Assembly (NCBI GenBank): GCA_946482045.1
Contig: CAMLPZ010000133.1
Coordinates: forward strand, 1-11,182
Reading direction: 5' to 3'
From: an uncultured Asticcacaulis sp.
GTDB taxonomy: Bacteria; Pseudomonadota; Alphaproteobacteria; Caulobacterales; Caulobacteraceae
Length of the DNA: 11,182 bases
The notes below the pieces were generated by a model that saw nothing but the letters and a program-made list of their open reading frames with translations, had not been told where the DNA came from and did no database searches. Made by a program: the position numbers and the translations under genes. Below, one piece after another: positions 1 through 8,311 of the stretch (position 1 is the first letter of the stretch; the number at the start of each line of letters is the position of its first letter).

Positions 1-542
1 CAGATATTGCCACGATCCGCCGAACTGGCAAGCAGGCCTTCGACCGTCACCGTCTGCTCGCCATTGCAATCCCACCGTCCGCACCGCGCCACGGCGGCAA
101 ATTCGCTCAGCGTCCGGTCGCCCAGCCGCCCCTGCCGGCTGAGATAACCGATACCGTCCAGCCGCGATCTCTGGCACTTGCGGCACGTAACGCGCAGATA
201 GCCGTCGCGATTGAGGAACTTCAGTTGCGGATCGCCGCCCTGGACTTTCGCCCCGAAAAACGGCGTGAACGACCGCGCGAACAAGATGCCTTCGTTGCGG
301 GCATTCCACGCCTTCAGGCTTCCCGAATTCGACGTCTCGCAATCCCAATACGTATCGACCTTTGGCGCCCCCTTGGTGAGCGGCTTCAACCGGCCTGAAT
401 ACAAATAAGCGCCGATCCGGAACACACCCGGCGCAACCTTCTTGGCCGTATACATGGTCGTGTCGTCTTCCAGCCCACAGCGAAAGCCATCGGCAATAAA
501 GTCCTCCGGCTCCGGCAGAGGGTTCCAGCGTGCCTTGCCCAT
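1..542 (-). CDS. Zinc-ribbon-like hypothetical protein, partial (C-terminus beyond left edge)
   Basis: The frame opens at ATG (540-542) and runs for 180 codons off the left edge without a stop. A G-rich stretch precedes the start. The visible protein begins MGKARWNPLPEP. It has two cysteine pairs, C120-x2-C123 and C154-x4-C159, about 30 residues apart, in the context VTCRKCQRSRLDG and RCGRWDCNG. That spacing resembles the small zinc-ribbon modules found in many alphaproteobacterial hypothetical proteins, where a hydrophobic helical stretch separates the two knuckles. The first 110 residues contain no motif I recognise. It is the second gene of an operon, starting 12 bp after the stop of the small gene at 555-809. 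No enzymatic function is assigned; metal or nucleic-acid binding is inference from the cysteines only. Confidence 0.7.
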   Translation of the reverse strand, partial: MGKARWNPLPEPEDFIADGFRCGLEDDTTMYTAKKVAPGVFRIGAYLYSGRLKPLTKGAPKVDTYWDCETSNSGSLKAWNARNEGILFARSFTPFFGAKVQGGDPQLKFLNRDGYLRVTCRKCQRSRLDGIGYLSRQGRLGDRTLSEFAAVARCGRWDCNGEQTVTVEGLLASSADRGNI

Positions 543-554
543 GACACCCCCCGG

Positions 555-809
555 TCAATGCAAGGTGTGCGGCAGCGATTGCAGCCCGCATTCCGCCGCC
601 CACACATCGACCAGGTCATTGACGGCGTCCGGCACCGACACACGCCCGCTGCGGACATTGAATGCGACCTCTTCGACAAAGTCCGCCAGCAGCATGGCGT
701 CGTGCTGGCTTCGCGGCCCGGTGAATTCCTTGAGCAGCTGGGCCTTCACGTCAATAATCGACATATGGCCAGCCTTGAACAACCGCAGCGCGGCTTCAAA
801 CGCGTTCAT
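555..809 (-). CDS. Small hypothetical protein, 84 aa
   Basis: An 84-residue soluble protein starting MNAFEAALRL, with a strong ribosome binding site (GGAGGG, then TTAG, then ATG). It is first in a two-gene operon; the zinc-ribbon-like gene follows after 12 bp. It is predicted mostly helical with no membrane segment and no catalytic motif. Its central part (about residues 13-71, including RSGRVSVPDAVNDLVD) aligns by eye with residues 21-82 of the small protein at 7687-8001 (RNREIALADAFDAFVD), so the two are probably paralogues of an unnamed family. An AT-rich leader (about 812-850) precedes the gene and probably holds its promoter, but I see no convincing -35/-10 pair. Function unknown. Confidence 0.65.
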   Translation of the reverse strand: MNAFEAALRLFKAGHMSIIDVKAQLLKEFTGPRSQHDAMLLADFVEEVAFNVRSGRVSVPDAVNDLVDVWAAECGLQSLPHTLH

Positions 810-900
810 CTAACCCTCCATTATTATGTTCCCTTTTTGTTCTTTTTGTAGGTGATGGTCAAGAACGCGCAAGTTGAACCTGCCCCGGCAACGGAAGATC

Positions 901-1014
901 GCGCTTGTCGGTCGGATGCGGCCCGGACCATTCCCAGAAATAGGCCGCCGGCATCAAGCAGAACGACTTGCGCCGCCACGGCGTCCGGTAGGCCGGCGTG
1001 TCACCGATCTCTTC
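901..1014 (-). pseudogene. SRAP peptidase remnant A (middle fragment only)
   Basis: On the minus strand this encodes about 38 residues of the middle of an SOS-response-associated peptidase, including the family signature FCLMPAAYFWEW (usual form RCLIPA.GFYEW) whose Glu belongs to the active site. A stop (1015-1017) ends the frame upstream, and the left border of the duplication at 901 cuts off everything downstream. It is the identical counterpart of the first part of the remnant at 2263-2719. It has no start codon in the right place and cannot make a functional protein. Confidence 0.75.
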
Positions 1015-1044
1015 TCAACCGGGCTATCGGTGGCAGGGTCAATT

Positions 1045-1164
1045 GCACAGTGTGCCTGCACCCCTCTCGCCTGTCACATGTTCGAAAAACATGTTTTCGC
1101 TGACACATGCTGCGTCTCATGTTAAAAAATTCGCATTTCGCGAACATATCGTCCGGCACATGTT
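1045..1164 (+). promoter_or_regulatory. Fic upstream region with palindrome cluster (copy 1)
   Basis: The 115 bp before the chosen Fic start hold unusual structure. There is an 11-bp odd palindrome, GCACA-G-TGTGC (1045-1055). ATGTT occurs at 1078, 1091, 1119 and 1160 (the last overlaps the start codon), with one inverted AACAT at 1143. An exact 8-bp palindrome TTCGCGAA lies at 1137-1144. The area from 1081 to 1147 is also clearly more AT-rich than the coding DNA. This looks like a promoter/operator region. Control by the Fic protein's own C-terminal winged helix is inference. The same region is duplicated at 2750-2869. Confidence 0.4.
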
Positions 1165-2251
1165 AAAACCAACCTACGCCATTCCTGCCCTGCCCCCGCC
1201 AGTCGAATTGGAGACCATCCGCGTCTACAAGGCCCTGACCACGGCCAGCCGGGCGCTGGCGGACCTCAAAGGCCACGCCCGGACTATCCCCAACCAGGGC
1301 ATCCTGATCGACACCCTGGCGCTTCAGGAAGCCAAGGCCTCTTCCGAAGTCGAAAACATCGTCACCACGCAGGACGAACTTTTCCAGGCCGACCTCTTCC
1401 CCGACGATCCGCAATCACCCGCCGCCAAGGAGGTCGCGCTTTATCGTGACGCCATACGGCTCGGCTTGCGCAAGCTGACGGAAACCGACCTGATTCCAAA
1501 CTCCACCCTGATCGACATGTTCCGGCTTCTCAAAGGTCGCAGCGATGCCTTCCGCACCACACCCGGCACTGCCCTGAAAAACGAGACGACGGGCGAAACC
1601 GTCTTTGTCCCGCCGCAGGACGCGCGGGAAATCGCCGATCATATGACGGCCCTTGAGCGCTTCGTGAATGACGACGCAGTGTCATCGCTCGATCCCTTGA
1701 TCAAAATGGCGCTGATCCATCATCAGTTCGAAAGCATCCACCCGTTCCCTGATGGCAATGGCCGGATCGGGCGCATTCTCAATGTCCTGTACCTGACCCG
1801 GACAGGCCTGCTGGAGATCCCGATCCTTTACCTGTCGCGCCACATTACTCGCCATAAGGCCGACTATTACCGTCTGCTCCAGGCCGTGCGCGATACCGGC
1901 GCCTGGGAAGACTGGGTCGTCTTCATGCTTGAGGCCGTGACCGCCACGTCGGCGACGACCATCCGCCTGGTCGAAGGCATCGGCAGCCAGATGGCCGCCG
2001 TCAAACGCCGCATGCGCGAAGAACTCCCCAAGCTCTACAGCCAGGACTTGCTCAACAACATGTTCCGGCATCCGTATACACGCATCGAGCACGTTCAGAA
2101 CGACCTCGAAATCACGCGCCAGACGGCGGCGAAATACCTCGATACGCTGGCCGCACACGGCTTTGTAGAAAAGCACCAGGCGGGACGCAACAACTACTAC
2201 ATCAATACTGACCTCGTCCGTCTCTTCCTCGAAGTGTCCGGAGAGCAATAG
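1160..2251 (+). CDS. Class II Fic-domain protein AMP-transferase with C-terminal winged helix (copy 1)
   Basis: A 363-residue Fic enzyme of the Shewanella SoFic type, predicted to transfer AMP from ATP to hydroxyl side chains of target proteins in the cytoplasm. Domains in order: an N-terminal helical domain carrying the inhibitory motif S61-SEV-E65-N66, matching the (S/T)xxxE(G/N) consensus of self-inhibited class II Fic proteins; the Fic core with an intact HPFPDGNGRIGR motif (194-205; catalytic His194, phosphate-binding GNGR); and a winged-helix domain (about 292-352, with ITRQTAAKYLDTL as the likely recognition region). Length and architecture match the family. The frame stays open upstream to a GTG at 998 (417 aa, with another ATG at 1091). 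I prefer 1160 because SoFic-like proteins begin shortly before the proline-rich segment seen here at residues 9-14; the ribosome binding site is weak, so the start is uncertain. The stop lies 11 bp from the convergent SRAP remnant. An identical gene lies at 2865-3956. Targets are unknown. Confidence 0.92.
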   Translation: MLKPTYAIPALPPPVELETIRVYKALTTASRALADLKGHARTIPNQGILIDTLALQEAKASSEVENIVTTQDELFQADLFPDDPQSPAAKEVALYRDAIRLGLRKLTETDLIPNSTLIDMFRLLKGRSDAFRTTPGTALKNETTGETVFVPPQDAREIADHMTALERFVNDDAVSSLDPLIKMALIHHQFESIHPFPDGNGRIGRILNVLYLTRTGLLEIPILYLSRHITRHKADYYRLLQAVRDTGAWEDWVVFMLEAVTATSATTIRLVEGIGSQMAAVKRRMREELPKLYSQDLLNNMFRHPYTRIEHVQNDLEITRQTAAKYLDTLAAHGFVEKHQAGRNNYYINTDLVRLFLEVSGEQ

Positions 2252-2262
2252 CCGCTCCTTTG

Positions 2263-2719
2263 TCAGTTCTCCGGCGTTGTCGGGGGTCGTCTGCTGGTCG
2301 GCACAGGGTCGGGGATTTCGTCATCAAAACCGTCCTCCTTGCTGAGCCGCAGCGTCCCTGCCTCCACCGGCTCCGTCAGATCGCGGTCCAGCCGTCCGGC
2401 CAGGTACGGCCAGGTACGGCCCCCATTCGTCCGGGTGCAGGATCGCCGGTTCGCGGTCGTGCAGCGCCGACATGTCCGCGCCCGCGGCGTGCGTCAGCAT
2501 GGTGCAGCTCGTCACCACGCCATCGGCCGTCGTCGCCGTGTCGTAAAGCCCGGCGAACATCATCTGGTGATTATCCGCCCGCCCGATCCGCCAGCGTTGC
2601 TTCTTGCGCTTGTCGGTCGGATGCGGCCCGGACCATTCCCAGAAATAGGCCGCCGGCATCAAGCAGAACGACTTGCGCCGCCACGGCGTCCGGTAGGCCG
2701 GCGTGTCACCGATCTCTTC
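2263..2719 (-). pseudogene. SRAP (YedK/HMCES-like) peptidase remnant B, C-terminal half with frameshift
   Basis: The longest surviving piece of a SOS-response-associated peptidase gene, a family that uses Cys2 to form protein-DNA crosslinks at abasic sites in single-stranded DNA. Reading leftward from 2719 it gives EIGDTPAYRTPWRRK, then FCLMPAAYFWEW (active-site Glu), FAGLYDT, SCTMLTHAA and ALHDREPAIL (active-site His). The N-terminal half, including the essential Cys2 and the conserved Asn, is absent: a stop lies at 2720-2722 and the Fic upstream region follows. A 10-bp tandem duplication (2401-2420) then shifts the frame, so translation ends at 2324. Removing one copy restores a normal tail (LAGRLDRDLTEPVEAG...) ending at TGA 2263-2265. 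Non-functional as it stands. Confidence 0.85.
2401..2420. repeat. 10-bp tandem duplication causing SRAP frameshift
   Basis: The unit CAGGTACGGC occurs twice back to back. Ten bases is not a multiple of three, so the minus-strand SRAP frame is broken here. With a single unit the protein would read WGPYLAGRLDRDL, which fits SRAP C-termini. The same double unit is at 4106-4125, so it arose before the large duplication. Confidence 0.85.
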
Positions 2720-2749
2720 TCAACCGGGCTATCGGTGGCAGGGTCAATT

Positions 2750-2869
2750 GCACAGTGTGCCTGCACCCCTCTCGCCTGTCACATGTTCGAAAAACATGTT
2801 TTCGCTGACACATGCTGCGTCTCATGTTAAAAAATTCGCATTTCGCGAACATATCGTCCGGCACATGTT
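2750..2869 (+). promoter_or_regulatory. Fic upstream region with palindrome cluster (copy 2)
   Basis: Identical to 1045-1164: the GCACA-G-TGTGC palindrome (2750-2760), the run of ATGTT/AACAT half-sites and TTCGCGAA. Because it is duplicated together with the gene, both Fic copies should be expressed and regulated alike unless read-through from flanking DNA differs. Confidence 0.4.
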
Positions 2870-3956
2870 AAAACCAACCTACGCCATTCCTGCCCTGCCC
2901 CCGCCAGTCGAATTGGAGACCATCCGCGTCTACAAGGCCCTGACCACGGCCAGCCGGGCGCTGGCGGACCTCAAAGGCCACGCCCGGACTATCCCCAACC
3001 AGGGCATCCTGATCGACACCCTGGCGCTTCAGGAAGCCAAGGCCTCTTCCGAAGTCGAAAACATCGTCACCACGCAGGACGAACTTTTCCAGGCCGACCT
3101 CTTCCCCGACGATCCGCAATCACCCGCCGCCAAGGAGGTCGCGCTTTATCGTGACGCCATACGGCTCGGCTTGCGCAAGCTGACGGAAACCGACCTGATT
3201 CCAAACTCCACCCTGATCGACATGTTCCGGCTTCTCAAAGGTCGCAGCGATGCCTTCCGCACCACACCCGGCACTGCCCTGAAAAACGAGACGACGGGCG
3301 AAACCGTCTTTGTCCCGCCGCAGGACGCGCGGGAAATCGCCGATCATATGACGGCCCTTGAGCGCTTCGTGAATGACGACGCAGTGTCATCGCTCGATCC
3401 CTTGATCAAAATGGCGCTGATCCATCATCAGTTCGAAAGCATCCACCCGTTCCCTGATGGCAATGGCCGGATCGGGCGCATTCTCAATGTCCTGTACCTG
3501 ACCCGGACAGGCCTGCTGGAGATCCCGATCCTTTACCTGTCGCGCCACATTACTCGCCATAAGGCCGACTATTACCGTCTGCTCCAGGCCGTGCGCGATA
3601 CCGGCGCCTGGGAAGACTGGGTCGTCTTCATGCTTGAGGCCGTGACCGCCACGTCGGCGACGACCATCCGCCTGGTCGAAGGCATCGGCAGCCAGATGGC
3701 CGCCGTCAAACGCCGCATGCGCGAAGAACTCCCCAAGCTCTACAGCCAGGACTTGCTCAACAACATGTTCCGGCATCCGTATACACGCATCGAGCACGTT
3801 CAGAACGACCTCGAAATCACGCGCCAGACGGCGGCGAAATACCTCGATACGCTGGCCGCACACGGCTTTGTAGAAAAGCACCAGGCGGGACGCAACAACT
3901 ACTACATCAATACTGACCTCGTCCGTCTCTTCCTCGAAGTGTCCGGAGAGCAATAG
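2865..3956 (+). CDS. Class II Fic-domain protein AMP-transferase with C-terminal winged helix (copy 2)
   Basis: Identical in protein sequence to the Fic gene at 1160-2251: 363 residues, inhibitory motif S61-SEV-E65-N66, Fic motif HPFPDGNGRIGR at 194-205 and a winged-helix C-terminus. The frame again stays open upstream to a GTG, here at 2703. Neither copy shows a stop, frameshift or altered catalytic residue, so both should be active and self-inhibited. With perfect identity there has been no time for divergence, or the copies are kept alike by recombination, or the duplication is an assembly product. It is followed after 11 bp by the last SRAP remnant on the opposite strand. Confidence 0.92.
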   Translation: MLKPTYAIPALPPPVELETIRVYKALTTASRALADLKGHARTIPNQGILIDTLALQEAKASSEVENIVTTQDELFQADLFPDDPQSPAAKEVALYRDAIRLGLRKLTETDLIPNSTLIDMFRLLKGRSDAFRTTPGTALKNETTGETVFVPPQDAREIADHMTALERFVNDDAVSSLDPLIKMALIHHQFESIHPFPDGNGRIGRILNVLYLTRTGLLEIPILYLSRHITRHKADYYRLLQAVRDTGAWEDWVVFMLEAVTATSATTIRLVEGIGSQMAAVKRRMREELPKLYSQDLLNNMFRHPYTRIEHVQNDLEITRQTAAKYLDTLAAHGFVEKHQAGRNNYYINTDLVRLFLEVSGEQ

Positions 3957-3967
3957 CCGCTCCTTTG

Positions 3968-4190
3968 TCAGTTCTCCGGCGTTGTCGGGGGTCGTCTGCT
4001 GGTCGGCACAGGGTCGGGGATTTCGTCATCAAAACCGTCCTCCTTGCTGAGCCGCAGCGTCCCTGCCTCCACCGGCTCCGTCAGATCGCGGTCCAGCCGT
4101 CCGGCCAGGTACGGCCAGGTACGGCCCCCATTCGTCCGGGTGCAGGATCGCCGGTTCGCGGTCGTGCAGCGCCGACATGTCCGCGCCCGC
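3968..4190 (-). pseudogene. SRAP peptidase remnant C (C-terminal end only)
   Basis: Third SRAP piece, identical to 2263-2485. It keeps the motif around the active-site His (ALHDREPAIL, upstream of the frameshift), the 10-bp duplication at 4106-4125 and the original TGA at 3968-3970. It is cut at 4190, where unrelated sequence with the stop of the next minus-strand gene begins. A short frame runs across the junction (4217 to 4029) but is a chance fusion with no start context. Confidence 0.75.
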
Positions 4191-4192
4191 CC

Positions 4193-4624
4193 TCAAATCT
4201 GCGGCGGCATGCGCCACGCCCGCGGCTGGCGGCGCAGCGGCTTAAGCCTGACCGGCTCCAGCACCAGCAGGAGCAGCGCCAGGCTGTTGAGAATGGCGCA
4301 GGTCACCAGCACATAGATCATGTCCAGTCCAAACAGCTCATCGCCCTGGTCGCCGTACCAGTAGAGGACGAGCGTGCAGGCGACGCTCAGGCCGATGGCC
4401 GTCCAGGCGGTACCCGAAATCAGCCGCCGCCGGATGATGGGATAAAGCGCGTTCAGAACCAGGCTCAGCCCCAGAAAGGCCACGCAGGCGGCATAGCCGT
4501 AGAACGCGATATCGACGGCGCCAAGCTGCGGAAACGCGTCAACAAGCCGGCCGGACACAGCAGCGACCATCAGGCTGGCAATACCGCCAGCCACAAGTAC
4601 TCGGTCCAAGATCAGCGTGATCAT
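4193..4624 (-). CDS. Four-helix membrane protein, hypothetical, 143 aa
   Basis: An integral membrane protein with four hydrophobic segments (about 5-24, 37-61, 72-90 and 101-123) and a short basic tail (RLKPLRRQPRAWR) that should lie in the cytoplasm by the positive-inside rule. I chose the ATG at 4622-4624, which has a good GGGGAGG ribosome binding site 8-9 bp upstream, over the longer frame beginning at 4741, whose extra 39 residues overlap the likely promoter. It is divergent from the DUF4349 lipoprotein gene. The Fic duplication ends 2 bp beyond its stop. No family recognised. Confidence 0.65.
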   Translation of the reverse strand: MITLILDRVLVAGGIASLMVAAVSGRLVDAFPQLGAVDIAFYGYAACVAFLGLSLVLNALYPIIRRRLISGTAWTAIGLSVACTLVLYWYGDQGDELFGLDMIYVLVTCAILNSLALLLLVLEPVRLKPLRRQPRAWRMPPQI

Positions 4625-4640
4625 CGCCCTAACCTCCCCA

Positions 4641-4690
4641 GGTTGCACAAGTGTACACAATTCCGCCACATTTGCCAATGTGCACATGCG
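4641..4690. promoter_or_regulatory. Divergent intergenic region with two palindromes
   Basis: Between the divergent genes (4625-4756) lie two exact palindromes: GTGTACAC (4651-4658) and ATGTGCACAT (4678-4687), with centres 28 bp apart. The first is embedded in TTGCACAAGTGTACACAA, which resembles the TTGCACAGTGTGC element upstream of both Fic genes. Spacing on one face of the helix and placement between two starts suggest an operator for one or both genes; the regulator is unknown. Confidence 0.35.
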
Positions 4691-4756
4691 AACGCTGTCC
4701 AGCCTTGCAAACACAACACCCCCAGAGGCATACTCGGCCAAAACAGGGGAGTTGCC

Positions 4757-5653
4757 ATGTCCGGTCTCAGAAGCTTAAGCGCGGTCCTGTTCCTGTCGGT
4801 CTCACTTGCCGCTTGCAATCAGCAACACGGCTTAAACGAACACGCCGACTACGCCGACGCGGCGCCGCAAAGCCTGGAGATGGCACTCCCCCAGGCAGCG
4901 CCCGCCGACGCCGGCGCACCCGCCAACACAGCCATCGCCGTCGCGGTCCCTCAGTTGGCCTACACTTACGAATACAGCTTCGTCCTGCCCGCCGCGAAGC
5001 TTGAACCGCTGGTGGCCGCCCACCAAAAGGCCTGCGATGCCGCCGGTCCCGCAACCTGCCAGATGATCTCGGCACGCGGCAGCACCGACAAGGACGCCTC
5101 AAGCCTCTCGCGCACGCTCGAACTGCGCGTCACGCCCGCCTGGCTCAAGACCTGGCAATCGCGCCTCGACGCCGACATCAAGAAGGCCAATGGCCGCATC
5201 GCCCGCCACAGCGTCGAAAGCGAGGACCTGAGCCTCCAGATCGTCGATACCGAAGCGCGCCTGAAGAACAAGGAAGCCCTGCGCGACCGCCTGGCCGAAA
5301 TCGTCCGCTCGCGCCCCGGCAAGATCGCCGACCTGGTCGAGGCCGAAACCCAGCTGGCCCAGGTCCAGGGCGACATCGACGCCGCCCGCTCATCCCTGAA
5401 CGTCATGAAAAAGCGCGTGGCGACCGTCCACCTGACCCTGACCTACGAAAGCGAAGCCGTCGCCGCCTCCTCGGGCACCTTCGCACCGCTCAGCGACGCG
5501 GTGAACAGCATCGTGCGCAACATGGTCTGGGCCGTGGCCTGGGTGATCCACGGCGTGGCCTTCTTCTTCCCCTTCGTCCTTTTGGGCGCGGGCGCATTCT
5601 GGCTCCTGCGCCGGTGGTGGAAGGCCCGCAAGGCAAAGCGCGGCGATCAATAA
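4757..5653 (+). CDS. DUF4349 domain lipoprotein, 298 aa
   Basis: A predicted membrane-anchored lipoprotein. It starts at the ATG preceded by GGGGAG five bases upstream. A signal peptide (about 1-19) ends in the lipobox LAAC with Cys20 as lipidation site. An Ala/Pro-rich linker (about 35-65) follows, then the DUF4349 region (about 68-235), which has a coiled-coil-like middle (EARLKNKEALRDRLAEI, then AETQLAQVQGDIDAARSSL) and the typical end VATVHLTLTYES. One membrane helix (about 255-285) and a basic tail close the protein. This layout, lipid at one end and a helix at the other, is usual for the family, whose function is not established. The frame stays open far upstream (from 3965), but that stretch is antisense to the neighbouring membrane protein gene and lacks signals. 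Seven bp separate its stop from the convergent SDR gene. Confidence 0.88.
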   Translation: MSGLRSLSAVLFLSVSLAACNQQHGLNEHADYADAAPQSLEMALPQAAPADAGAPANTAIAVAVPQLAYTYEYSFVLPAAKLEPLVAAHQKACDAAGPATCQMISARGSTDKDASSLSRTLELRVTPAWLKTWQSRLDADIKKANGRIARHSVESEDLSLQIVDTEARLKNKEALRDRLAEIVRSRPGKIADLVEAETQLAQVQGDIDAARSSLNVMKKRVATVHLTLTYESEAVAASSGTFAPLSDAVNSIVRNMVWAVAWVIHGVAFFFPFVLLGAGAFWLLRRWWKARKAKRGDQ

Positions 5654-5660
5654 CCGCGCC

Positions 5661-6461
5661 CTACCCGTCCTTCAGCGCACCGTAGAAGTACGACGCTGTC
5701 ACCCCGCCATCCATCAGCACGTCGCTGCCGGTGATGAACCCGCCGTCCGGCCCCATCAGCAGGGCCGCTATGTTGGCGACCTCCTCAGGTGTCCCGGCCC
5801 GCCGCGCCGGCGACCGCGCGACCATCCGCTGATCGTCCTCGTCTGTCGTGCCCACGATAATCCCCGGACTGATGGCGTTCACCCGGGCGCCGAACGTGCC
5901 CCATCGCGCGGCCTCGGCCATTACCCGCAAACTGTTGCCGCGCATTGACAGCTGATAGGCGTGCAGCTCGTCCCGGATCGCCTCGGGCCGCAAGAACGGC
6001 AAGGCCAAAAGCTCAGCCGCCGGCATCACCGCCAAGGCCCTGTCCTGCTCGGCCGACAAAGCCTCCAGCCTGTGCCCGGAATGCGAAGCAATCACCACGG
6101 CCGCCCCACCGGGCGCGATGACGTGGCCGAATTCCTCAAGCACCACCGCCGTGCCATAAAGATCGACAGCCAGTATCCGCTCGACCGAAGCCTGCGACGG
6201 CGATACCCCGGCCGAGTGAATGAGGCCGGTAATATTGCCAATCGTGCTGGCCGTATCGACCAGCTCCAGCACCGACTCCCGCGACGCCACATCGACCCGC
6301 GCCGTGCTCGCGCGCACGCCCGCAGCGCGCAAGGCCTCCGCCACAGCCTCAGCCTTATCGGACTTTACATCCGCCACGACCACATGCCGCCCGCCCGCCA
6401 CCCGGCGCGCGATGGCCTGGCCGATGGCCCCGGCGCCGATCAGTACCAGAACGCTGTCCAT
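5661..6461 (-). CDS. SDR-family (Rossmann) protein lacking the catalytic lysine
   Basis: A 266-residue classical-length short-chain dehydrogenase/reductase. The dinucleotide motif GAGAIGQAIA is at 9-18, and Asp31 at the end of the second strand points to NAD(H) rather than NADP(H). A variant of the NNAG motif (HSAG, 82-85), a likely catalytic Ser126 (VVIASHSG) and the NAISPG segment (195-200) are present. The active-site YxxxK reads Y169-QLS-M173: the Lys that binds cofactor and lowers the Tyr pKa is Met (ATG where AAG would be expected). The rest of the fold, including the C-terminal GFITGSDVLMDGG, is intact. Activity is therefore doubtful; it may be a pseudoenzyme or need only cofactor binding. 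The start has AAGGAG seven bases upstream. It is transcribed divergently from the retropepsin-like gene. Substrate unknown. Confidence 0.88.
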   Translation of the reverse strand: MDSVLVLIGAGAIGQAIARRVAGGRHVVVADVKSDKAEAVAEALRAAGVRASTARVDVASRESVLELVDTASTIGNITGLIHSAGVSPSQASVERILAVDLYGTAVVLEEFGHVIAPGGAAVVIASHSGHRLEALSAEQDRALAVMPAAELLALPFLRPEAIRDELHAYQLSMRGNSLRVMAEAARWGTFGARVNAISPGIIVGTTDEDDQRMVARSPARRAGTPEEVANIAALLMGPDGGFITGSDVLMDGGVTASYFYGALKDG

Positions 6462-6566
6462 GACAAATCTCCTTCTCCCGCCGCAGATAGCCGCTCATCC
6501 GCCGCAAGGAAACCTGAGATTGACGGACGCCATCATTTCTGTTGACCTGCCGCCTTGGAGCGATGT

Positions 6567-6656
6567 GCCGAAAAGTGTGCAGCGGTTTTTGGCGAAGTAT
6601 CGCGTCAGGAAGAAAGTCTAGAGCATGATGGCGGTTCGACCTAACGCATCATGCTC
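6567..6656. repeat. Dispersed alphaproteobacterial intergenic repeat with two stem-loops
   Basis: Two inverted repeats sit side by side in the divergent spacer. The first has GCCGAAAA (6567-6574) pairing with TTTTTGGC (6586-6593), one G-T wobble and an 11-nt loop. The second is a perfect 10-bp stem, GAGCATGATG (6621-6630) with CATCATGCTC (6647-6656), and a 16-nt loop. The CCGAAAAGTGTGCAGCGG core and the TCTAGAGCATGATG block are typical of a repeat I know from many alphaproteobacterial intergenic regions. It ends 21 bp before the next gene's start and could affect mRNA stability or termination; that role is inference. Confidence 0.6.
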
Positions 6657-6677
6657 CAGCATCATTTGGGGGCCATC

Positions 6678-7604
6678 ATGATCACCAGACGCGAAGCCGC
6701 ACTCGGCGCCATGGCGCTGCTTTTCCCAGGCGCCGCCATGGCCGACGACGTCCTGCGCATTCCGCTGCACATGACAGGCGGGCGCCCGACCGTGAAGGTC
6801 ACCATCAATGGTCGCGGCCCTTATCTTTTCGCTATCAATGCCGGCCAGGGCGCCTCCTTCGTCGAACGCCCCGTCTCAAACCGCGCGAAACTCAGGATCA
6901 TCGGCGATCAGTTCGAAGCCTCCACGATCCTGTCCAGCACCGAGACCATTATCGCCCACCGCGTCAACGCCGCCAAAATTGTCGTCGGCGACGTCTTCAC
7001 GCTGAAGAATGTCAGCATGTTCCGCACGCCTCAGCTGTTCCCCAACGATATCCCCGACGTCTTCGGCATGCTGGGCCGCCAGCTCTTCGTCCAGAAGGAC
7101 TGCGTGCTCGATTTCGAAAAAGCGGAAATCCGCGTCTACCCCAACGGCTTTACCCCCACCGAAGGCTTCCGCCAGGTCGAGGCGAAGATCGGCACCTCGC
7201 CGACCAGTACCTATGGCATAACCCTCGACGCTGAGCTCAACCAAAAGCCCCTGCGCCTGGCCCTGAACACCTGGATAGGCGAACAAATCCGCCTGTCGCC
7301 GGACTACGTCCTGGCCAACCGCCTGTGGCCCGCGACCGCCGACTACGCCAACGCGCCGGGCCAGCCCGTCATCGGCGGCCGCATCATCGAAAACACAACG
7401 TTCCGCATGGGCCCCTTCGTCTTCGATGAGGTGTCGCTGATGCTCTATCCGCCCGATACCGGTTCGCATATGGCCGACTTTGGCATCGACGCCTATATCG
7501 GGCTCGGCCTGATGAAGATGTTCTCCCTCGCCTTTGTCGGCGGAAAGACGATCTTCCTTAAGCCCAACGCCAGCGCCAACCGGGGCTGGGACGTGCTGCC
7601 GTAA
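6678..7604 (+). CDS. Tat-exported retropepsin-like protein with both catalytic Asp replaced by Asn
   Basis: A 308-residue periplasmic protein. The N-terminus TRREAALGAMALL with cleavage likely after AMA (about residue 22) looks like a twin-arginine or Sec signal. The mature part has two lobes of the bacterial aspartyl protease (retropepsin-like) fold. Lobe 1 has the pattern NGRGPYLFAINAG, where FxIDTG is expected, so position 54 is Asn. Lobe 2 has NQKPLRLALNTWIG, where LxLDTG is expected, so position 197 is Asn. FGMLGRQLF (129-137) and VLDFEKAEIRVYP (143-155) match the usual GLLGxDFL and LDF..g.l segments. Loss of both Asp predicts no protease activity but a kept binding fold. I start at 6678 (GGGGG upstream), not at the ATG at 6651 inside the repeat's stem. 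The lobe 2 alignment is less certain than lobe 1. Confidence 0.75.
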   Translation: MITRREAALGAMALLFPGAAMADDVLRIPLHMTGGRPTVKVTINGRGPYLFAINAGQGASFVERPVSNRAKLRIIGDQFEASTILSSTETIIAHRVNAAKIVVGDVFTLKNVSMFRTPQLFPNDIPDVFGMLGRQLFVQKDCVLDFEKAEIRVYPNGFTPTEGFRQVEAKIGTSPTSTYGITLDAELNQKPLRLALNTWIGEQIRLSPDYVLANRLWPATADYANAPGQPVIGGRIIENTTFRMGPFVFDEVSLMLYPPDTGSHMADFGIDAYIGLGLMKMFSLAFVGGKTIFLKPNASANRGWDVLP

Positions 7605-7641
7605 GCAGCTTGCCCGACGCCACGACACATTGATTTTTTAT

Positions 7642-7659
7642 GCCAATGGCGGCATTGGC
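7642..7659. terminator. Stem-loop after the retropepsin-like gene
   Basis: GCCAATG (7642-7648) and CATTGGC (7653-7659) form a perfect 7-bp stem with a 4-nt GCGG loop, 38 bp after the stop at 7604. TAATTTTCTTC follows, a weak T-rich tail, and TTTTTT precedes it on the other side. It may be a terminator in the plus direction. The stem is short and not very GC-rich, and it also lies only 28 bp before the next start, so an operator is possible. Confidence 0.35.
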
Positions 7660-7686
7660 TAATTTTCTTCAATTTGGCGAATTCAC

Positions 7687-8001
7687 ATGCAGACGCATCC
7701 CGCACTCATTGAGCGGTCGGTCGGCTCCACCTTGTGCAGCTATTCACGAGGCAAGCTGACGTTCGAAGAAGCCGCCCTGGACCTGTTCGAACTGGTTTCG
7801 AGCCAGATCAGTGGCCGAACCCATTATTCTATGGCCATCATAGGTTACTATGTCCGCGCCATCCTCGCCGGCATGCGCAACCGGGAAATCGCCCTGGCGG
7901 ATGCGTTCGACGCGTTTGTCGACGCCGCGGCTGCCGGGGCGGAGGGGCATTGCTCGGTCACGTCGCGATTGGCGCAACCTCTGTCCAGCGCCCGCTGCTA
8001 G
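7687..8001 (+). CDS. Small hypothetical protein, 104 aa
   Basis: Starts MQTHPALIER and is predicted mainly helical, without signal peptide or catalytic motif. Residues 21-82 align by eye with residues 13-71 of the small protein at 555-809: G-rich turn, helix, H, then FV/YVRA, R-N-R-E-I-A-L-A-DA-FDAFVD against R-S-G-R-V-S-V-P-DA-VNDLVD. This suggests two members of an undescribed small family. The last 20 residues look unrelated. No clear ribosome binding site precedes the ATG. The TAG stop is shared base for base with the convergent DUF4287 gene (CTAG, 7998-8001). Function unknown. Confidence 0.55.
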   Translation: MQTHPALIERSVGSTLCSYSRGKLTFEEAALDLFELVSSQISGRTHYSMAIIGYYVRAILAGMRNREIALADAFDAFVDAAAAGAEGHCSVTSRLAQPLSSARC

Positions 8002-8210
8002 GCCTTATCCTCCGCCAGGGTATGCGCGACAATGGCGTTGGCGTGCCCGTGGCCCATCCCGTGCTCGGTCTTGAGCATCGCGACCAGCTCCATGTGTTTG
8101 GCTGGATAGGCCTGCCGCACGATGGCCTTCCACTCGGCGATCGGGCGGCCATACTTTTTCTCGATGGACGGAAAGTAGGACGCGGGTCCCTTGATCGGCA
8201 GGTCTGTCAT
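7998..8210 (-). CDS. DUF4287 domain protein, 70 aa
   Basis: The whole 70-residue protein matches the DUF4287 pattern: KGPASYFPSIEKKYGRP, EWKAI, then AKHMELVAMLKTEHGMGHGHANAIVAH. Members occur widely in bacteria as single small proteins or as domains of larger ones; their function is not known. The frame stays open upstream to 8402, but the extra 64 residues overlap the end of the CPBP gene and do not resemble the family, so I start at the ATG 8208-8210. Just upstream is an inverted repeat ACGCC/GGCGT (8211-8215 and 8222-8226) that covers the ribosome binding site region and could hide it. The stop overlaps that of the convergent gene by four bases. Confidence 0.85.
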   Translation of the reverse strand: MTDLPIKGPASYFPSIEKKYGRPIAEWKAIVRQAYPAKHMELVAMLKTEHGMGHGHANAIVAHTLAEDKA

Positions 8211-8311
8211 ACGCCAATTAAGGCGTCTCACGATGGACCTGTCAACGGGACTTTGCCGTGACGGTTTCGGGTTCAGCCGAACCAAGGGACGGCGACAAGG
8301 GCGATCTGCGC

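Follow-up and report, generated by a model that had tools for sequence, protein, structure and literature searches.

The closest described relatives of the gene considered here are the SoFic proteins (PADLOC; Shewanella oneidensis PDB 3EQX/3ZCN/3ZEC; E. coli PDB 9VJC, the entry given for EcSofic in PMC12249575). E. coli Sofic is reported to protect against phage by AMPylation and to be a toxin of abortive infection, paired with a small antitoxin, AS1, that is encoded downstream; AS1 is reported for E. coli H397 only (PMC12249575), and such a gene is not known to define the family. SoFic is reported to be autoinhibited through its class II motif (PMC3667792), and the wild-type Sofic protein is said to be still toxic despite self-inhibition (PMC12249575, 2025). 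A stretch of 11,182 nucleotides from an uncultured Asticcacaulis sp. (contig CAMLPZ010000133.1; hereafter the window) carries a gene with the same domains, the same catalytic and class II motifs and a near full-length match to these proteins. Its difference from the known SoFic genes is that it is present in two identical tandem copies. It also differs from E. coli Sofic in lacking a short AS1-like frame close behind it on the plus strand: none of 25-91 codons starts between -30 and +170 bp of the fic stop, though no AS1 sequence was compared. Short frames downstream of fic are shared with up to nine other loci, in other species.

Two other Fic proteins bear on the region upstream of the gene. 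CccR of Yersinia pseudotuberculosis, a Fic-helix-turn-helix protein, is reported to repress its own promoter, with the dimer binding two distant half-sites (PMC9755527). The window SoFic resembles it in having a C-terminal helix-turn-helix and a palindromic site before its own gene; the CccR site is AGATAATCAT-N26-ATGATAATCT, the half-site in the window is CATGTTA with 17 bases between, where binding is predicted, and CccR has the further feature of being a secreted effector. CbFic2 of Coxiella has the same combination of Fic and C-terminal helix-turn-helix and is reported to bind random DNA sequences; according to the same 2023 paper, DNA binding by SoFic lacked experimental demonstration (PMC10628234). 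Whether a comparable palindrome accompanies SoFic genes in general is taken up below.

Ordinary bacterial tandem duplications are reversible by RecA and consist of identical head-to-tail copies with a novel joint between units. The locus in the window resembles them in its identical head-to-tail copies, its novel inter-unit joint and the absence of a visible insertion sequence at the ends, and it is unlike them in that both outer ends are truncated inside the unit.

A truncated array of fic and a broken SRAP gene

Positions 901-2485 and 2606-4190 are a maximal exact match of 1585 bp with 0 mismatches at an offset of 1705, just as the initial annotation had described it, and its length excludes a chance origin. 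The broken gene in the repeat unit is that of SRAP (SOS-response-associated peptidase, PF02586), on the minus strand; its C-terminal side sits in the end of copy 1 and its middle in the start of copy 2. Judged by the homology, the 120-bp spacer is the inner part of this remnant and not foreign DNA. As spacer and repeat ends are pieces of one SRAP remnant, the locus is a truncated array with a tandem period of 1705 bp, comprising 1.93 units with both outer ends inside SRAP (Table 1). The 1585-bp repeat originally proposed thus stands, while the idea of a free-standing duplication of that extent does not, the array being truncated within SRAP.

Table 1. Features of the window (PWM, position weight matrix; SRAP residues are numbered as in the 217-aa relative P0122)
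Feature	Position	Strand	Remarks
Left flank	1..900	-	two small minus-strand frames behind a presumed LexA-type box, GTTC-N7-GTTC, at 828
Repeat copy 1	901..2485		1585 bp: SRAP middle piece, operators (predicted), fic, SRAP C-terminal piece; exact match to 2606-4190
SRAP remnant, left piece	901..1014	-	tblastn with P0122: residues 81-117 at 1014-904
Predicted operator O2, copy 1	1077..1107		31-bp palindrome, PWM score 22.9
Predicted operator O1, copy 1	1118..1148		31-bp palindrome, starts 42 bp before ATG, PWM score 33.9
fic copy 1	1160..2251	+	SoFic-type, 363 aa; Fic_N, Fic, SoFic-like_C domains
SRAP remnant, middle copy	2323..2719	-	residues 81-209 of P0122
Spacer	2486..2605		120 bp, single copy; SRAP homology runs across
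Repeat copy 2	2606..4190		1585 bp; exact match to 901-2485
Predicted operator O2, copy 2	2782..2812		PWM score 22.9
Predicted operator O1, copy 2	2823..2853		PWM score 33.9
fic copy 2	2865..3956	+	identical to copy 1
SRAP remnant, right copy	4028..4190	-	cut at 4190, junction with right flank
Right flank	4191..8248		blocks common with G011; membrane-protein-like gene, DUF4349, SDR and others

The middle SRAP copy scores with PF02586 on the open reading frame 2324-2662 (Pfam, E 2e-19). It is without the first 80 residues of P0122, and near 2398-2417 a tandem duplication of 10 bp puts it out of frame, a lesion common to both repeat copies. In the left piece, DNA positions 901-973 are 93% identical to a sister genome, G011.

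Both Fic frames, from ATG 1160 and ATG 2865, are intact, and the same region lies upstream of each, in agreement with what had been noticed at first sight. The catalytic motif HPFPDGNGRIGR at residue 194 fits HxFx(D/E)GNGRxxR and the inhibitory motif SSEVEN at residue 61 fits class II, (S/T)xxxE(G/N), as these are defined in PMC3667792; together with the SoFic homologues this bears out the designation self-inhibited AMP-transferase. The PADLOC SoFic model PDLC03963 matches residues 9-356 of 363 with E 1.7e-113, and the Pfam domains Fic_N, Fic and SoFic-like_C are all above cut-off. SoFic-like_C (PF21248, E 5.9e-23) provides the C-terminal helix-turn-helix, in a domain that PMC10628234 describes as a winged helix, and among solved structures the protein matches 9VJC and the SoFic of S. 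oneidensis best. By profile, then, fic is a SoFic-type anti-phage gene and probably defends against viruses. The SoFic type, the broken SRAP in the unit and the conserved operators, as predicted below, are what the initial annotation missed.

The comparison with relatives draws on 81 related loci in total, the genome loci among them being the best 80 of 406 Fic relatives, and on 25 genomes of the genus. Among those 80 genome loci the window Fic is closest to Asticcacaulis (84% and 82%). No second Fic gene is present within the available flanks of the 81 loci; one of them (L060) has a single fic gene in two aligned pieces, and another (L056) carries a 28-residue C-terminal Fic fragment. A DNA search finds a strong fic match in four of the 25 genus genomes, one copy in each, and one of the four is plasmid-borne.

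One of the 25, G011 (locus L107), shares the right flank at length (blastn identity 88.2% over 4191-5662, 83.0% over 5665-6563 and 90.3% over 7623-8248). There a SRAP remnant (L107 6580-6947), 92.2% identical to window 2321-2678 and devoid of the 10-bp duplication, directly precedes the same right flank, and no Fic was found at the site in the DNA search. I take SRAP beside the membrane-protein-like gene to be the native order, with the rightmost SRAP piece of the window presumably at its native place. Across the right joint, CCTCAAA is preceded by GTCCGCGCCCGC in the window and by GTCGCTCCCA in G011, which is compatible with a short-homology deletion; the parent sequence would be required as proof. 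The SRAP 3′ end is also broken in G011 (L107 6480-6580), near the end of homology with the window and with other genes next to it, and the spot may be prone to rearrangement.

Adjacent identical copies in an arrangement absent from relatives are the layout of a recent tandem duplication. The 0 differences in 1585 bp bound the divergence of the copies at <0.19% (95%), and the three flank blocks differ from G011 by 11.8%, 17.0% and 9.7%. Zero differences against roughly 10-17% in the flank blocks means that the doubling, or the last homogenization, is very recent, and of the readings initially offered for the locus a very recent amplification is the best.

Origin of the array and alternative explanations

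The explanation that we favor, and hold to be probable, is that in an Asticcacaulis-like bacterium a SoFic anti-phage gene was recently amplified in tandem, the unit consisting of fic, its own predicted operators and a SRAP fragment. In the ancestor fic and SRAP would have stood tail to tail. Illegitimate joining of the interior of SRAP (near 2720-2750) to DNA just upstream of the fic operators would then have given a head-to-tail array, of which deletions inside SRAP at 900/901 and 4190/4191 would have trimmed both ends to leave 1.93 units. The array would expand or collapse easily through homologous recombination between its arms of 1585 bp, which would also keep the copies identical, and the duplication is most likely reversible as well as very recent; recent doubling and sequence exchange between copies are both expected of long tandem repeats, and one or the other accounts for the identity. 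The self-inhibited AMP-transferase encoded by each fic copy is expected to be an abortive-infection enzyme. With two predicted palindromic operators per copy, to which the SoFic dimer would bind, two genes need not double the protein: self-repression would buffer the dose, and the doubled dose first proposed is doubtful. The repeat, the SRAP pieces, the sister locus lacking fic, the gene family and the conserved palindromes are observations; the order of events, the instability of the array, autorepression, dose buffering and phage defense are all inferred.

Several points weigh against this explanation. The joint from SRAP to the DNA upstream of fic is present twice, and so is that from the end of fic to SRAP, so a single duplication of fic and SRAP is insufficient, and as both outer ends are cut inside the repeat unit more than one event is needed. 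A plain two-copy duplication thus fails, and what is required is a minimum of three units, a circle or some second step; for the joints it would suffice to trim an array of three units at each end, or to integrate a circle via SRAP homology. The native joints are seen in none of the relatives examined. The longest contig given for P0002 (fic, 96%) has 13,736 bases, as does that for P0122 (full-length SRAP), a hint that fic and SRAP are carried on a single contig. The left breakpoint is undated because the left flank is without counterpart in the genus set, and the printed assembly is the sole source for copy number, for the state of the population and for the very existence of a second copy.

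This last point leads to the alternative that survives best, though we consider it unlikely, namely that the two-copy layout is the assembler's reading of a repeat loop and that the truth is a larger array, a single chromosomal copy with a 1705-bp circle, or a mixed population. A loop of this kind (left-repeat, repeat-spacer, spacer-repeat, repeat-right) would give the printed order as its shortest path, and an assembler walking the loop once prints two copies at any true number, given real spacer joints. The loop does, however, need those joints to be real, and hence would imply more than one plain copy; moreover the right flank is syntenic with the sister genome over several kb, so there is no crude chimera on that side.

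It is more improbable still that a fic-bearing mobile element or circle integrated through homology between SRAP copies (Campbell-type recombination), either as a dimer or in two rounds. Such integration predicts the observed order of SRAP piece, fic, SRAP, fic and SRAP piece, and SoFic comes and goes in the genus set, with four strong-match genomes (one plasmid-borne), one remnant and one operator-only scar. Against it, the Pfam-scanned proteins of the unit, Fic and the SRAP frame, include no recombination or replication gene (other frames of the unit were outside the scan), and a near search of 72,556 plasmid records yields five, at 71.7-75.5% and with fic only, on which a plasmid origin of the unit was rejected. 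A phage origin fared no better, the viral contigs giving a single relative at 73%. An insertion sequence or composite element at the repeat ends was likewise discarded: no transposase or integrase domain occurs in a Pfam scan of ten window proteins (other frames were unscanned and no dedicated insertion-sequence search was made), and no short direct repeat, and so no target duplication, is visible at 900/901 versus 4190/4191, as had been claimed for the outer ends.

Recombination between long identical arms homogenizes them, so that identity of the 1585-bp arms by itself gives no date, but that an old duplication has been kept identical by long-term gene conversion, its two copies being useful, is very doubtful, since neither the 81 loci with their available flanks nor the four genus genomes with strong fic, each with one, offer a two-copy relative, and the identical tract takes in dead SRAP sequence. 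As a duplication, the locus after recent amplification is an ordinary one, and the conserved operator in the unit is the part worth testing.

Palindromic sites upstream of SoFic genes

The predicted operator has CATGTTA half-sites with 17 bases between the halves and occurs as one or two sites about 41 bp apart. The 31-bp model derives from the 150 bp upstream of fic in the window and in 80 of the 81 loci, of which 54 regions were kept after removal of those at least 75% alike; L060 was omitted on account of its split alignment and nevertheless carries the sites. In all 54 dereplicated regions, which come from related genes and are not independent, the best palindrome beats all 1078 same-locus control windows (top control 3.65), and with leave-one-out none of the 54 falls to the 99% control level (-3.8) or below. 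In 46/54 the start of the best site is at -42. At least two sites are present in 24 of the regions at a lenient cut of about -2.3 (99% control level -3.8), and 23 of 25 spacings between them are 40-42 bp. Across 1.44 Mb of loci, partly overlapping, a PWM score >10 is reached by 118 matches at most 130 bp upstream of a listed fic and by 12 elsewhere. Ten of these 12 lie in loci with an unlisted fic (L060, L095-L098) and one, in L101, is just before a distant fic (42%); for the last, L056 8979 with a score of 10.0, no explanation was found.

A strict form of the pattern occurs in six of the 25 genus genomes, with a single palindrome per genome that is reported on both strands. In four of them it lies at fic and in the other two at an apparent fic scar. 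The backwards control of the pattern gives one match, in G001. At one scar, in G003 (L155 1460-1640), the operators are followed by only a short N-terminal fic remnant reading RTPTYVIPDMPRPNE; a frame near them appears integrase-like by eye alone. At the other, in G008 (L156 1391-1577), two SoFic-type operators without fic stand between GH43 and iolB, and an A. excentricus plasmid (L153) has fic at the position matching this operator-only site. On that plasmid (L153 3850-5200) fic is flanked by direct repeats of about 40 bp ending CCCCTGC, which could be a driver of fic loss.

Beyond the close clade, a gammaproteobacterial search gave 67 matches in 65 of 369 genomes (E <= 1e-40), the best 30 of which were made into loci. 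The distant set comprises 30 SoFic loci of <61% identity (42-60%), 28 of them gammaproteobacterial, plus L154 and L101. Independently of any model, palindromes are enriched in this set: 10/30, for instance, have at least 10 of 12 pairs at width 32, versus 0.4 expected (widths 26-37 were examined), and perfect palindromes with other half-sites are present, for example in L131, L147 and L150. That half-site type and recognition helix covary is a judgment by eye. A half-site that changes while the palindrome persists points to a binding protein that moves together with the gene, the obvious candidate being SoFic itself. We infer that a SoFic dimer represses its own gene through the C-terminal winged helix on these palindromes.

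More generally, and here the balance tilts only slightly in favor, SoFic genes would be self-repressing, with the dimer binding one or two palindromes of about 31 bp at a fixed distance upstream of the start codon. From clade to clade the half-site would shift in step with the recognition helix (CATGTTA, TGTATA, GTTCAA and TGTCGA types) without loss of the palindrome. How strongly the cell can shut down would then be set by the freeing of the operator during infection, or by tandem amplification, which in the window gives two genes and four operators. Speaking against such generality, the close-clade model exceeds the control maximum of 3.65 in only 10 of the 30 distant loci (175 bp scanned versus 150 bp for controls), several, L133, L136, L137 and L139 among them, have no more than 9 of 12 palindrome pairs, and distant SoFic genes are often without a detectable site; the link of operator to protein is a comparative one, drawn from 54 interrelated regions. 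No SoFic operator was found in print by title or start of abstract among the papers listed by the literature searches, whose coverage takes in neither subscription papers nor preprints, and the recent SoFic structures 9TCH, 9TC4, 9TCL and 9TB0 may be accompanied by a description of one.

Neighboring sequence and significance of the locus

None of the 25 genus genomes matches the left flank (1-900) at the DNA level. We take the motif at 828 to be a LexA-type box. The gene at 3-542 has no protein match in plasmids or phages and weak matches in 8/199 genomes of the family set; its 180-aa product has one relative in the protein set, P0001 (96%, on a 1384-base contig), and belongs to no Pfam or PADLOC family. 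A likeness of the small proteins 555-809 and 7687-8001, seen by eye, proved unsupported (best E 0.24).

On the right, a retropepsin-like gene (6651-7604) and its surroundings (6563-7623) are absent from G011, where the flanking blocks almost touch (L107 9526/9541). About 105 bp at 6555-6660 recur widely in Asticcacaulis genomes, at up to 87% over the full length in G011 and as shorter pieces in others, and look like a dispersed extragenic repeat. The sequence 11020-11182 matches two places in G011, L107 14180-14342 (86%) and 16937-17101 (75%), and whatever starts there may be repeated. No RNA family reaches its gathering threshold in the window. Terminator-like matches number 10 versus 3.2 expected, all on the minus strand, and a scan of 850-4300 for sigma-70 promoters, uninformative for this bacterial group, gave none.

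The locus is a natural case of a likely phage-defense gene amplified together with its own regulatory DNA, in a genus that seems to have lost SoFic elsewhere with the operators left behind. How SoFic, reported to be toxic despite self-inhibition (PMC12249575), is kept quiet is made testable by the predicted operator, and the palindromic site may serve as a sequence tag both for SoFic genes and for the scars of lost ones.

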